Shown here piece by piece: positions 32,792 to 37,406 of a stretch of DNA of 64,000 nt. The notes under the pieces are model-generated. The model worked only from the letters and a program-made list of their open reading frames with translations. It did not search any database and was not told the DNA's origin. Every line of letters starts with the position of its first letter. Within the stretch, counting starts at the first letter, position 1. The stretch lies in the NCBI GenBank assembly GCA_002840715.1, contig PHBW01000002.1:124001-188000 (forward strand), in the 5' to 3' direction. The stretch comes from Chloroflexi bacterium HGW-Chloroflexi-4. Its GTDB lineage: Bacteria; Chloroflexota; Anaerolineae; Anaerolineales; Anaerolineaceae. The translations under genes and the position numbers were made by a program.

Positions 32792-35700
32792 TTAAGAAAT
32801 TTGGTTCAGCTTGGAAATTAAAAATGAATGAATTGACTTTGGATCCATTGGCAAAGATGAGGGAGATGTATTTATTAATTGCTGCCTGGTAGCAATAGCT
32901 TTCTGGCGGGTTGATTCTTCTGCACCTTCCGAGCGAATCGTCTCATCCAACAAAGATACCAGCCTATCCACTTTACCAAACATCATCAACAACCGGCAAG
33001 CCTCAACAATCCCTCGATGGAAGAAATTCATTGATTCTGATGTTAAGGATAGAGTAAGCAATTGAATTAATTCATTTTTGGCTGCCATAGTATCACCTAA
33101 TTCACGGTATCCTTCTGCCAATATGGCGCGCGCAGACAAGATGCCCAATTCCGACCCAATTTCTTCACTGATTGTCAGGGCTTGTTCATTATATAAAACT
33201 GCATTTTCAAAATCTTTTTGATAAGCAAAGGTTTCACCAAGATTGGATAATGCGATAGCCTCACCTTCTCTGTCTCCGATTTGAGAACAAATTTCGACAC
33301 TTCTACCAAAACAGTTCAGAGCATTTGGATAATCCATGAGTTCCAAATAAGCAGTTCCTGCATTGTTTAAGGTTAACGATTCAAAATAAAGGTTATTCAT
33401 TGCCCTGCCGATTTCGAGAGCCTGACCATAATGTAATAGTGCCAGTTTGTAATCGCCACGAATACACGCAATATCTGCCAGAATATTTAATACTTTTGAG
33501 AGTCTTCTAATATTTCCAAATTCATTACAAATATCCCGGCATAAAAATAAATTTCTCTCTGCTTCAGAAATTTCACCCAGATTAACATGTGCATAGCCCA
33601 GGTTGTAAAGTGAATGGGATTCCTCTTCTTTATCATGAATCTTGCGAGACAGTTCAAGTGCTTTTTCTGCATAAACACATGCAGTTGAGGAACTTTTCTT
33701 AACCAAGGCATGGGTTGCCAAAGCATTTAAACAATATGCTTCTTCATGGAAGAGCTTTGCAGCACGAGCCGTTTCCAATCCAAAATTTATCTTATCTTCT
33801 GCACCTTCAAATTGCTGGATGCGAATTCTGAAAAGAGCATTACGGCAAATCAGTTTTGCGCGGCAAATTAAGGTTGTATCTTCTTCAGGAATACTGTTTA
33901 TCAACTTTTCAAATAATTTGGTGCCCTCCCTAAAGTAACTTCTATTTTCAAAATAGACATTTAAGGGGGTAACAAGTTCATCAATCTCATTCCATTTTTG
34001 GTTTTGGACAAACCAATAAAGACCTGCTTCAATATCAGCAAGGATTTTTTCAAAATTCTCATAAAAAATAATTAATTTTTCATCCTTTCGATCTGCGAAA
34101 AATTCCAGAACTTGCTGCTTAAACCAAAATGCATGTTTTTCTTTATATTTTTGAAGGTCTTGCTTCGATGTTGTTGAAAATTCAATTACATTCTGTTTAA
34201 CGACTCGATGAAACCGGTAACCATCGATCCCATCCCAAATCAAAAGTGACCTTTTGGCAAAATCCTTCAAGAAAGACGCATCGACATCGCAAACTGCAAG
34301 TGCAGCTTGCACAGAAAATGGGTTTTCAAAAAGGGTCAACCGGGCAAACAATAATCGATCCTGGTCCGAGAGGTGATACCATACATTCTCAAAAGATGCT
34401 TGAATACTTCGATGACGCTCAGGAAGATTAATTGATTGAGTTATTAGACTATTGATGTTCTCTTGCAAGCCGACCAATATTTCATCAATTGGAATCCACT
34501 TTGTTTGACAGGCTGCCAGATCAATTGCCAGTGGGAACCCTTCAACGAGATCACATATTTTTACGACACTGGTTGAAAAAACAGGATCGTTCATTTCAGG
34601 ATGACTCTCAACCTGAAGATGTGAATAAAAAAGATTCACTGCATCGGAATGCTCACCATCGCTGGTCGATAACCCGCCCAAGGCGAATACTTTCTCTCCC
34701 ACTAAATCTAAAAAAGAATATGAAGTAAACAAGAGAACAATTTGGGGAGCAGCCTCCGTCAATTGCTTTGCAAACAGGGCTGCCTCATTAAGGTTCTCAA
34801 CATTATCAAGCACCAACAAAGCACAGCGATGGGCTGCCCATTCCATTAATTCTTCCATCGAATTTGATGTATGCTCAATACTGGTTTTTGATAATGCCAG
34901 AATTGTTGATGCGATGTGCTCTACAGAATAACAGTTTGCAATGGAAACAAAAAATACCCCATCCTTAAAAAGGGCGTTCTGAGTGCTGGCAAGTTCCGCG
35001 GCTAGTCTTGTTTTTCCTGAGCCCCCAGGACCAGTGAGCGTGATTACATGGTGCTTTGGATTGGACACCCAATTTTCCAATACCTCCAATTCGTAGTTGC
35101 GACCAACAAATGGAGTTGCGTAACCGGGTAGATTTACTGAAAGTACTTTCCGTGTCCTTTGAATTTTGCCGGTGGACAGATTGTTTTGAATATCAACTAA
35201 TGCATTTTTTAATATTATTCCGGGTTCAATATCCATGTTATTTTGCAGATAGCGCACTGCAGAATGGTATTGCGTTAAAGCGGCGTTCGGCTGAAAGGCT
35301 TGAAGATATATTTGGATTAATCGTGCATGAAAATCTTCATCCCAGGGAGCAATTGTGATTAACTTTTCTGCAATTTTTCTTGCTTCAAGCCATTCGCAGC
35401 GGTCTTCATGGTATTTAAGCAAGATTGAATAACCCAACACTAAAAATCGATCAATTCGTTCTCTTTTCAAAGCCAACCAATCTTCAAAGAGGTCAGAATC
35501 GGGCAAAGTCAACAAAGGCAGCATTTGGCCTGTGATTTGAGCCATGGTTCTTTTGAGTTGAATTATCGGAAAACCACGCGATTTTCTTGCGTTGTGGTGA
35601 TCAAGAAGAGTTTGAATTTTATTTTCAAAATCCAATATATCTACATGGATCACAACCTTTTCACTAAACCCCAAAGTATCTCGGTCACTGGAGAAAATCT

Positions 35701-35974
35701 CAACACCACTGATACTTTCTGAGACAGCTTTTTTAACCGTAGTCAAAGCTTGCCGAAGGTTATGCAGCGCTGTTTGCTCTGGAACATCAGGCCAGAAAAT
35801 AGCTGCTAATGTGTTGCGTGCATGCACACGTGGATTTTCAAGAAGAAGATAAGCGAATAACCCCCTGGCTTTTTGTGAGGATATCTCACTAATCACACAA
35901 GAATTAATGCTGATCTCAAATCCACCAAATAATTTTGCATCCAAAATAAGGTCATCAAATTGTGGCTGCTGCAT
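32792..35974 (-). CDS. SARP/AfsR-like regulator: OmpR-type DNA-binding, BTAD, NB-ARC, TPR
   Basis: Large cytoplasmic regulator of 1060 residues. It has an OmpR/SARP-type winged helix (about 12-105, with KARGLFAYLLLENPRVHARNTLAAIFWPD), a bacterial transcriptional activator domain BTAD (about 112-262), an NB-ARC ATPase (about 288-600) with Walker A GPGGSGKT (315-322) and Walker B LLVLDN, and many TPR repeats (about 690-1040, e.g. YALNLGNAGTAYLELMDYPNALNCFGRS-like units). AfsR-type proteins activate genes by binding direct repeats just upstream of a -10. Such repeats lie in the divergent gap, so the 36033-37406 pair is the likely target. The ATG has no clear ribosome site. Confidence 0.92.
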   Translation of the reverse strand: MQQPQFDDLILDAKLFGGFEISINSCVISEISSQKARGLFAYLLLENPRVHARNTLAAIFWPDVPEQTALHNLRQALTTVKKAVSESISGVEIFSSDRDTLGFSEKVVIHVDILDFENKIQTLLDHHNARKSRGFPIIQLKRTMAQITGQMLPLLTLPDSDLFEDWLALKRERIDRFLVLGYSILLKYHEDRCEWLEARKIAEKLITIAPWDEDFHARLIQIYLQAFQPNAALTQYHSAVRYLQNNMDIEPGIILKNALVDIQNNLSTGKIQRTRKVLSVNLPGYATPFVGRNYELEVLENWVSNPKHHVITLTGPGGSGKTRLAAELASTQNALFKDGVFFVSIANCYSVEHIASTILALSKTSIEHTSNSMEELMEWAAHRCALLVLDNVENLNEAALFAKQLTEAAPQIVLLFTSYSFLDLVGEKVFALGGLSTSDGEHSDAVNLFYSHLQVESHPEMNDPVFSTSVVKICDLVEGFPLAIDLAACQTKWIPIDEILVGLQENINSLITQSINLPERHRSIQASFENVWYHLSDQDRLLFARLTLFENPFSVQAALAVCDVDASFLKDFAKRSLLIWDGIDGYRFHRVVKQNVIEFSTTSKQDLQKYKEKHAFWFKQQVLEFFADRKDEKLIIFYENFEKILADIEAGLYWFVQNQKWNEIDELVTPLNVYFENRSYFREGTKLFEKLINSIPEEDTTLICRAKLICRNALFRIRIQQFEGAEDKINFGLETARAAKLFHEEAYCLNALATHALVKKSSSTACVYAEKALELSRKIHDKEEESHSLYNLGYAHVNLGEISEAERNLFLCRDICNEFGNIRRLSKVLNILADIACIRGDYKLALLHYGQALEIGRAMNNLYFESLTLNNAGTAYLELMDYPNALNCFGRSVEICSQIGDREGEAIALSNLGETFAYQKDFENAVLYNEQALTISEEIGSELGILSARAILAEGYRELGDTMAAKNELIQLLTLSLTSESMNFFHRGIVEACRLLMMFGKVDRLVSLLDETIRSEGAEESTRQKAIATRQQLINTSPSSLPMDPKSIHSFLISKLNQIS

Positions 35975-35994
35975 CTTTATGGTTACTTTCTTGT

Positions 35995-36026
35995 TTGACG
36001 ATTCTTTGACGATGTTTATCTATGAT
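35995..36026 (+). promoter_or_regulatory. SARP-like direct-repeat operator and -10
   Basis: TTTGACGAT occurs twice, at 35994-36002 and 36005-36013, period 11. Taken as heptamers TTGACGA (35995-36001 and 36006-36012), they are 4 bases apart, and the second ends 8 bases before a -10 TATGAT (36021-36026). This matches the known geometry of SARP activator sites. There is no consensus -35 at normal spacing, as expected for an activator-dependent promoter. Confidence 0.7.
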
Positions 36027-36032
36027 TTAACC

Positions 36033-36248
36033 ATGATGGAAAACGAAAAATCTGTTGAACCTTTAATGGTAGAGCGCGGCGGTTACCACTCCTTTTTACT
36101 GCGCATTTGGAAACCAAAAGGATTAATTGGTACCAGGTGGTTATTCTCACTCGAAAACCCAATCACGCATGAGCTCATCGGTTTTCAAAATCAATATAAA
36201 TTAATTAAATATTTAACACAAATTATTGAAAAAAAACAAGTGGATTAA
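36033..36248 (+). CDS. Small conserved-looking protein, probably leaderless
   Basis: Protein of 71 residues with no recognised family. Core: GGYHSFLLRIWKP, then TRWLFSLENPITHELIGF and LIKYLTQII, which suggests a small beta sheet ending in a helix. The maximal frame begins at 35907, but the first -10 box is at 36021-36026 and the ATG pair 36033/36036 follows by 6 bases. That leaves no leader and excludes the longer frame, which also runs into the regulator gene. It is the first gene after the SARP-like operator, and a lipoprotein follows 24 bases on. It may be a partner of SARP-type regulators; that is a guess from position. Confidence 0.6.
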   Translation: MMENEKSVEPLMVERGGYHSFLLRIWKPKGLIGTRWLFSLENPITHELIGFQNQYKLIKYLTQIIEKKQVD

Positions 36249-36272
36249 CCCTAACATTCAAGAGGAGAAAAA

Positions 36273-37406
36273 ATGAAACATAAATTGTTATCTTTAACCA
36301 TATTTGTATTGTTTTTATTCTTAATGGGATGTTCAAATCTAACTGCCAAGACCGAAACATTCTTGCCCACAGATTTGCCCGCAAAAGCAGAGACTGAAGC
36401 CCTCGAAATTGTCACGGAGACACCAGAACCAACAGAATTAATAACCGAGGCTGCAAATTCAGAAGAGACGACGGCCATTGTCACCGAAGTTGTCATTGTG
36501 CATGAAAACATACCCGGTATTTCAAAGTATTCATCCAGTGAAAGAATTGATGATTGCAGCACCGGTGAACGGCTTGCGTTAGGCGCAACAACCTTAATCG
36601 GAAAGGCCTGCGATGATTGGAAAAAAGCCAAATTGGAACGTCCGGCGGATGCGCCCAATGGCACCTACTATCCTGCCATCGATATTGTACGCGCCGAAAT
36701 GGGCACAAATCAACTTTGGATGTTTGCCAAGATAAATCTATATAAAGATGCAGTGGGGCAACTGCCGCCAGAATTAAGTCTGGGGTTTGAGATTGATACC
36801 GACCTTGATTCCCGCGGTGATTACCTGATTCTGGTCAGCGGTTTATCTACAACGGAGTGGAGCACTGACGGCGTACAGGTCTGGTGGGACCAAACCAAGG
36901 ATGTTGGAGGAGAAAAACCTCATGTGCCAGATGGACCAGTTGGCGACGGTTATGAAACTTTAGTTTTCGACGCTGGCCAGGGTTTGGATGCCGACCTTGC
37001 CTGGGCGCGCATCAACCCCGAGAATGGCGCCAGCGTGGAATTTGCATTCAAACCAACGCTGTTGCCTGAAAACCAGGTTTTTGTATGGTGGGCATGGGCA
37101 GCTTTGAAAGAGATCTCACCGGTCGATATGGAACTGGTCGACAGCCAAATAGACACAGAATCATGGATGTTAGATAACACCTGCAGCAAAATCTTTAATG
37201 GCAAACCCAATAAAATGATTGTCAACATATGCGAATTTGTAATACCTACTCCTACACCATTGCCAACCAACGCACCATCGAGTTCTTCAGGATCCTCCAA
37301 TCCTTCTGTATGTGTTCCAATAGATTGTCAGGCAGCACACCCCGGTGATCCCCCCGGTTCGTGGGAGTGGAACTCAGCTACCTGCAGTTGCAGCGCAATC
37401 AACTAA
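36273..37406 (+). CDS. Lipoprotein of unknown function
   Basis: Surface lipoprotein of 377 residues. The signal peptide ends LMGC (Cys 20), followed by a Thr/Glu/Pro-rich linker to about residue 80. The mature domain has Trp/Asp-rich beta segments (MFAKINLYKDAVG, LSLGFEIDTDLDSRGDYLILVSG, VQVWWDQTKD, VFVWWAWAALKE) that resemble a carbohydrate-binding or DOMON-like sandwich. The C-terminus has a small Cys-rich tail (VCVPIDCQ, ATCSCSA) after a Ser/Pro linker. GAGGAG precedes the ATG. It is the second gene after the SARP-like promoter and ends at a terminator. Function not known. Confidence 0.75.
   Translation: MKHKLLSLTIFVLFLFLMGCSNLTAKTETFLPTDLPAKAETEALEIVTETPEPTELITEAANSEETTAIVTEVVIVHENIPGISKYSSSERIDDCSTGERLALGATTLIGKACDDWKKAKLERPADAPNGTYYPAIDIVRAEMGTNQLWMFAKINLYKDAVGQLPPELSLGFEIDTDLDSRGDYLILVSGLSTTEWSTDGVQVWWDQTKDVGGEKPHVPDGPVGDGYETLVFDAGQGLDADLAWARINPENGASVEFAFKPTLLPENQVFVWWAWAALKEISPVDMELVDSQIDTESWMLDNTCSKIFNGKPNKMIVNICEFVIPTPTPLPTNAPSSSSGSSNPSVCVPIDCQAAHPGDPPGSWEWNSATCSCSAIN

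Follow-up and report, generated by a model that had tools for sequence, protein, structure and literature searches.

A SARP-type direct-repeat operator beside a divergent AfsR-like regulator in an Anaerolineaceae genome: a probable local switch for exported envelope proteins

We describe a direct-repeat operator lying between the gene of a divergent AfsR-like regulator and a small-protein gene followed by a lipoprotein gene, in a 64,000-nucleotide stretch of DNA (the window) that is part of contig C48 in the 3.86-Mb assembly of an Anaerolineaceae (Chloroflexota) MAG. The site is very probably the SARP-type operator of a local AfsR-like switch for exported envelope proteins, similar to the AfsR-afsS pair. 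The geometry of the operator, its conservation, the pairing of the genes, the fold of the regulator, and the exported character of the targets are established by sequence comparison.

The letters of the window contain two copies of TTGACGA (35995-36001 and 36006-36012) with a period of 11 and 4 bases between them, followed after 8 bases by TATGAT (36021-36026) and after another 6 bases by the ATG at 36033, all as given in the preliminary description. The divergent 1060-residue regulator that it had named was found as an ORF at 35974-32792, and the ORF at 36033-36248 yields the 71 residues that it had assigned to the small gene. Its choice of TTGACGA as the heptamer is literally correct in the window; the unit conserved in homologues, however, is TTTGACG, one base off, and for this reason the usual step to the −10 element is 9 rather than 8. 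In the TTTGACG register, the order reads TTTGACG-ATTC-TTTGACG (35994-36011), ATGTTTATC, TATGAT (36021-36026), TTAACC, and the ATG at 36033, with 9 bases (N9) between the second copy and TATGAT. The operator is located 19 bp ahead of the start codon of the divergent regulator, and the lipoprotein ORF begins 24 bases 3′ of the stop of the small gene. The features of the locus are as follows.

32792-35974, minus strand: gene of the AfsR-like (large SARP) regulator, 1060 aa (Pfam domains, model of residues 11-285, profile)
35986-36052, no strand: 67-bp block identical to that of a same-genus homologue (L029), covering operator, −10, and first codons (pairwise comparison)
35994-36000, plus strand: upstream heptamer TTTGACG of the operator (window letters, homologues, lag-11 test)
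36005-36011, plus strand: downstream heptamer TTTGACG, 11-bp period, 4-nt spacer (window letters, homologues, lag-11 test)
36021-36026, plus strand: putative −10 element TATGAT, 9 nt 3′ of the second TTTGACG (TANNNT offset peak)
36033-36248, plus strand: small-protein gene, 71 aa, predicted beta-beta-beta-alpha, possibly leaderless (family alignment, model)
36273-37406, plus strand: lipoprotein gene, 377 aa, second in the presumed operon (LMGC by reading; AGAGGAG just 5′)

A search for the exact pair TTGACGA-N4-TTGACGA gave a single hit in the window, a single hit in the 3.86-Mb assembly, and none in the reversed control. When up to 3 mismatches are allowed, the window holds 3 matches to the pair against a shuffle mean of 6.4, and the genome holds 408 matches to the TTTGACG pair against 601 in the reversed control, which is no enrichment; loose matches to the pair alone carry no meaning.

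An 85% identical homologue of the small protein is present in Anaerolineaceae bacterium UBA8523, whose taxonomic family falls within Anaerolineae, Chloroflexota. The block at 35986-36052 (67 bp) is unchanged in L029, a homologue with 85% identity, and its flanks are 82 to 91% identical except at 35975-35987 (9 of 13). Exact TTTGACG-N4-TTTGACG pairs precede three more distant homologues of the same genus (L030, L031, and L033, with 56, 45, and 47% protein identity), each with a −10-like hexamer 9 bases past the pair. The preliminary description had proposed conservation of the repeats in relatives as a check on its reading, and the intact block together with these exact pairs answers it favorably. 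Scoring of upstream regions against the TTTGACG pair gave at least 12 of 14 matching bases in 19 of 58 loci and p ≤ 0.05 by dinucleotide shuffles in 22 of 58. Since 12/14 is reached in only 19 of the 58 loci, the heptamer TTTGACG is confined to part of the family.

A consensus-free lag test, scoring any 7-mer that recurs at a given distance within the region upstream of a small gene, detected period 11 at 6/7 or better in 43 of 56 regions and at 7/7 in 29; any other period from 7 to 23 reached at most 14 and 6 regions, respectively. The near-copy L029 was left out of this test, as it was out of the −10 offset and export counts below, and L053, which contains N bases, was left out of the 56 regions. 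In regulator coding DNA, which served as a control, period 11 gave 9 (6/7) and 1 (7/7) of 45, with peaks elsewhere (up to 21 at period 18 and 7 at period 21) that presumably come from codon structure. Sixteen further regions, 15 of them from new genes, gave 13 (6/7) and 7 (7/7) at period 11 and no more than 7 and 1 at other periods. In the enlarged set of 89 loci, for which distance 11 alone was scored, a repeat was present at 6/7 in 69 and at 7/7 in 43, and 20 loci had no 6/7 repeat. (L114 is the same gene as L084 and was left out of the 89 loci but kept among the 16 regions.) The repeats themselves differ by locus and include TTTGACG, TGTGACG, CCTGATA, CAAACGA, TTTGAGA, ACGTTTT, CAAATGA, and more, and at L045, L053, and L049 a third heptamer copy follows at the 11-bp step, as in the PimR operator. 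In 16 of 44 regions, a TANNNT hexamer starts 9 bases past the second heptamer, whereas offsets outside 6 to 12 average 0.58 regions each. Between loci, the heptamer sequence varies; the period is constant, and so is the distance to the −10, whose mode is 9.

In SARP sites, according to the available text of PMC10936776, 8 bp separate the 3′ repeat from the −10, and the repeats are 11 or 22 bp apart. The direct repeats of the window are 11 bp apart, and their distance to the −10 is 8 in the TTGACGA register and 9 in the TTTGACG register. The claim that this grammar, 11-bp repeats about 8 bp from a −10, is found outside the actinomycetes thus gains support from the family as a whole, where period 11 stands out and the −10 step is fixed.

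The regulator carries Pfam matches over cut-off to BTAD, NB-ARC (29.5 bits), AAA_22 (36.1), and TPR_12 (72.1); the Pfam winged-helix model gave no score on it, and no receiver domain was listed by Pfam. A structural model of residues 11 to 285 (pLDDT 91.8) found its best folds in the PDB in AfsR (8k60, E 5.8e-10; 8hvr, E 4.7e-8) and EmbR (2fez, E 4.0e-8), and a profile of 42 relatives matched an AfsR chain at E 7.7e-26. Model, profile, and the Pfam BTAD match indicate that the N-terminus is an OmpR-type DNA-binding domain with BTAD behind it, and Pfam places NOD/NB-ARC and TPR parts after the SARP domain. The predicted fold and these domain matches make the regulator a large SARP by domain composition, and the AfsR-like identity first given to it is borne out by the AfsR SARP-domain fold combined with BTAD, NB-ARC, and TPR. 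The other BTAD match of this genome (G000:C1:19836-20255; L072, L108) is near the C-terminal end of an ORF of about 1090 residues with a different architecture, and three of the other partnerless BTAD genes retrieved (L098, L104, and L106) look similar.

One position of the recognition helix reads as Arg in 53 of 71 regulators, Ser in 11, Asn in 3, and Thr in 1, with 3 unreadable. Among loci with a repeat, ACG is present in both copies for 34 of 46 Arg types vs 0 of 11 Ser types (Fisher 7e-6), and this pattern favors direct recognition. The regulator tree, from which L118 was left out, is poorly resolved, with 7 Arg/Ser changes on the best tree; its well-supported branches hold 2 independent pairs in which the residue and ACG never run opposite, and the sign test is not significant. 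Counted from the profile alignment, the position corresponds to R87 of AfsR, described as a phosphate contact in the available text of PMC10936776.

Linkage between the small gene and BTAD regulators was examined across 13 genomes that were picked for carrying the small gene and consist of 1 to 150 contigs. Together they contain 38 listed small genes and 109 listed BTAD matches, and some of the weakest of these matches may be other repeats. A BTAD match lies within 6 kb of 35 of the 38 small genes, so the suggested adjacency of this family to BTAD regulators was recovered when the check was run. For 27 of the 38, the match is divergent and within 2 kb, an arrangement expected by chance for about 0.2%; of the remainder, 1 has a divergent match further out, 7 have a codirectional match upstream within 6 kb, and 3 have none within 6 kb. 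Viewed from the regulators, a small gene is near 35 of the 109 BTAD matches. Sixteen full-length BTAD genes without a small partner have a 6/7 repeat at distance 11 in 8 cases, equal to period 18, and an exact one in 2; the operator therefore follows the small gene and not BTAD genes at large. In the 89-locus set, 18 loci are without a regulator under the rule used, some being at contig ends and some having a regulator outside the limits. L037 (G026:C43) combines a small gene and a good operator with no BTAD regulator in the 5 kb upstream, and it is possibly an orphan target controlled in trans. At L048 (G059:C23), the divergent regulator is broken into short fragments in different frames, by decay or mis-assembly as the frames read, beside an intact small gene with no detectable operator. 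In two codirectional cases, L112 and L115, the regulator frame is open for just 310 and 393 residues, respectively, which is about as long as a small SARP.

Tblastn identified 26 hits to the small protein in 18 of 61 genomes, and after removal of L019 and L024, which are frames within other long genes, 24 sequences (that of the window and 23 others) were aligned, with the core YxSFLLRxW...WxxSLEDPxTxE...F...L..FL. The 71-residue protein of the window has no Pfam or NCBIfam match, and matches among the 24 members are weak, inconsistent, and scattered, and membership in a known family was dropped on that account. Its model (pLDDT 79.5) has three strands and one helix, an arrangement that may resemble AP2-type DNA-binding domains, and retrieved nothing from the PDB below E 0.9. 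When 150 genomes sampled from the class were searched with a profile, 82 had the family, with up to 14 copies per genome, and it was found at a stricter threshold in 14 of 201 genomes sampled from the phylum, 5 of them outside the class. The two genomes with more than 10 small genes noted, G081 (14 matches) and G215 (13 matches), have copy numbers that suggest an expanded repertoire of switches. No copy was found on plasmids. Fusions of the small domain were considered and rejected after inspection of four long frames, of which two run antisense to a regulator, one runs into N bases, and one is short. The likeliest role of the small protein is that of an accessory in the cytoplasm, serving either the switch or the exported protein, and its assignment is the weakest step of our reading.

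The length of 71 residues is most likely correct but falls short of proven because two further starts, the in-frame ATG at 36012 and the TTG at 36006, are also available to the gene. The first in-frame start is 6 or 7 nt past the −10 in 11 of 47 loci, the window included, and 5 to 236 nt past it in the others, one of which has no start; this count takes the first in-frame start after the −10, which favors short distances, and skips loci without TANNNT. At L042, an in-frame stop TAA is contained within the −10 hexamer TAAGAT, so translation must begin past the −10, and an ATG is found 6 nt later. The preliminary description had called the gene leaderless. This is plausible at the window, with the ATG 6 bases past the −10, but does not generalize (11 of 47 loci), and leaderless initiation is thus a plausible feature in this clade and no family-wide property.

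Exported proteins recur behind the small gene. Enough downstream DNA is present at 86 loci, and at 78 of them a codirectional ORF of 90 or more residues begins no more than 250 nt on; a plain hydropathy rule detects a hydrophobic N-terminal segment in 57 of these 78 next genes, compared with 60 of 253 other non-overlapping ORFs at the same loci, a control that depends on its make-up (123 of 774 overlapping ORFs). The 377-aa lipoprotein of the window has no Pfam match. By reading, the next genes of L032, L040, L116, and L122 carry CSLREA-like motifs near the N-terminus, and such genes appear to be a recurring class of exported protein behind the switch.

A search blind to gene content with TTGACGN5TTGACGN9TANNNT returned 14 hits in 61 genomes and none in the reversed control; 8 hits precede a small gene, and 6 precede a gene with a lipoprotein-type start. 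A stricter pattern returned 9 hits, 7 before small genes and 2 before lipoprotein genes. The six lone lipoprotein operators are listed below.

G036:C50:96946 (L142): lone lipoprotein operator, pattern and −10 step, without small gene
G058:C2:8834 (L149): lone lipoprotein operator, pattern and −10 step, without small gene
G009:C6:70093 (L162): lone lipoprotein operator, pattern and −10 step, without small gene
G000:C10:43062-43094 (L158, L170): second operator in the genome of the window (ATTGACG-N4-[TA]TTGACG-N9-TATTAT across this copy and the next two)
G013:C3:38713 (L159): second operator in a relative, common site with G000 C10
G009:C72:11058 (L169): second operator in a relative, common site with G000 C10

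At the C10 site, TATTAT is at the 9-base step, and the gene 120 nt on encodes a lipoprotein of 629 residues that contains peptidoglycan-binding domains (PF01471, E 4.2e-45); the site is kept in the two relatives. The stretches read around the six operators contained neither a small gene nor a SARP N-terminus, and control in trans is therefore assumed. By their sequences, L142, L149, and L162 suggest that the switch can bypass the small protein. The idea of a single target in this genome was dropped, as the C10 operator with its −10 step precedes a lipoprotein gene. A large regulon was also rejected, with sites at 0 to 3 mismatches not enriched in the genome; of four near-matches inspected, those at C7, C16, and C20 fall within long open frames that belong to other genes, and they have no −10 step. 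Exported envelope proteins are probably the end products of the switch, because 57 of 78 next genes are of exported type and six pattern hits precede lipoprotein genes.

From these comparisons, we infer binding, activation, the transcript start, autoregulation, the signal, and the job of the small protein. Two SARP-domain protomers (winged helix plus BTAD) of the divergent AfsR-like STAND regulator would occupy both TTTGACG repeats as neighbors on a single face of the helix, beside a −10 with no −35 at the proper spacing. The bound protomers would recruit RNA polymerase to TATGAT, and the transcript, starting at or near the ATG at 36033, would carry the 71-residue protein and the lipoprotein. 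The NB-ARC/TPR part may gate the switch on a signal, and the C10 operator (G000:C10:43062-43094) would extend control to the remote 629-residue lipoprotein, giving a small envelope regulon. The bound regulator may also hinder its own transcription, because the operator is 19 bp before its start codon.

Four other explanations compete with an AfsR-like activator of the small gene. Another OmpR/PhoB-type regulator, likewise a binder of 11-bp direct repeats, might use the operator in place of the divergent protein. This is improbable, although AfsR and PhoP sites overlap in Streptomyces according to the available texts of PMC10936776 and PMC10972967, and no regulator adjoins L037 or the six lone lipoprotein operators. 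Such a binder would not readily account for BTAD matches within 6 kb of 35 of 38 small genes, for heptamers that differ by locus as the regulators do, or for repeats whose sequence tracks a recognition-helix residue of the adjoining regulator (a pattern with few independent changes), and the partnerless BTAD genes also speak against it (exact 11-bp repeat in 2 of 16; 6/7 in 8 of 16, no more than at period 18). Marginally less probable is that the regulator binds but chiefly represses its own promoter, the small gene being a mere neighbor. At 19 bp before the regulator start codon, the operator should indeed overlap that promoter or leader, but the fixed-step −10 faces the small gene, and at the 7 codirectional loci exact repeats still stand before the small gene in L109, L110, and L112 and a 6/7 repeat in L115, with less in the other 3. 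The six operators that precede lipoprotein genes with the −10 step and no regulator in the stretches read argue in the same direction.

The remaining two explanations concern the promoter itself. If TATGAT were coding and not a −10, the protein would start at the ATG at 36012 (78 aa) on a transcript from upstream. The frame is open upstream, and L029, L030, and L031 have an ATG or GTG at the matching place, yet this reading is very unlikely given the in-frame TAA in the −10 (TAAGAT) of L042, the TANNNT peak at offset 9 across many loci, and the presence of TATTAT, likewise at offset 9, ahead of three lone lipoprotein genes. The least credible explanation is an ordinary sigma-70 promoter whose −35-like TTGACG was duplicated by chance. 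TTGACG has 5 of 6 bases of the sigma-70 −35 consensus, and TATGAT is a good −10, but the −35-like hexamers precede the −10 by 20 and 9 bp, both outside the usual spacing of 15 to 19. Unlike heptamers elsewhere (CCTGATA, CAAATGA, and ACGTTTT) keep the same period, and period 11 alone stands out in the lag test. An AfsR-like activator acting at a SARP-type operator is the reading we prefer.

It is possible, if rather doubtful in its full extent, that in Chloroflexota, chiefly Anaerolineae, these genes form a widespread and often multicopy cassette in which the dedicated small protein, as a cognate partner and more than a target, binds or feeds back on the regulator and the exported protein varies. 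The portion of the SARP literature available to us ties this promoter architecture to antibiotic regulators of actinomycetes, and the same geometry is seen here in another phylum. If our reading is true, SARP promoter grammar is older than, or has moved beyond, actinomycete antibiotic control and serves cell-envelope switching. Repeats that vary around a fixed period and −10 step would offer natural matched regulator-operator pairs for learning SARP recognition. The analysis also provides a lead on function for an undescribed small-protein family present in 82 of 150 class genomes and for envelope proteins of the Anaerolineae, a group with few cultured members.

Among known systems, PhoB and PhoP boxes are also 11-bp direct repeats beside the −10, bound by an OmpR-type winged helix; the regulator here differs in its BTAD-NTPase-TPR composition, with no receiver domain in the Pfam listing. 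The SARP-LAL regulator PimR, in the available text of PMC5930380, binds heptameric direct repeats with 4-nt spacers at the pimM promoter and requires at least two heptamers for binding. It differs in having three CGGCAAG heptamers, which do not overlap the −35 box, and in belonging to Streptomyces antibiotic clusters. Outside the actinomycetes, an AfsR/BTAD-type protein is mentioned for Deinococcus radiodurans in the available text of PMC1262709, and the titles and abstract openings of the open PMC matches listed (subscription papers and preprints being outside this set) contained no report of such regulators or operators in Chloroflexota.

The closest counterpart is AfsR-afsS of Streptomyces, which shares a large SARP with BTAD, NB-ARC/NOD, and TPR, an adjoining small-protein gene, two 11-bp direct repeats, and a poor or missing −35. 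The available text of PMC10936776 puts the afs box at −19 to −40 and its contacts within the leading 8 bp of each repeat. Counted from the A of the ATG at 36033 as +1, the window has its −10 at −12 to −7 and its pair of 11-bp units at −39 to −18, which on that assumption agrees with the afs box within one base. The systems differ in phylum and in repeat sequence, CGTT(T/C)ATCG there (available text of PMC10972967) and TTTGACG here. The Chloroflexota cassette is usually divergent, and the gene behind its small gene encodes an exported-type protein. SARPs in the strict sense are those that lie in or control an antibiotic biosynthetic cluster. The small protein is predicted as beta-beta-beta-alpha and is not filed under AfsS, and two candidate operators in this genome contrast with the global role of AfsR.
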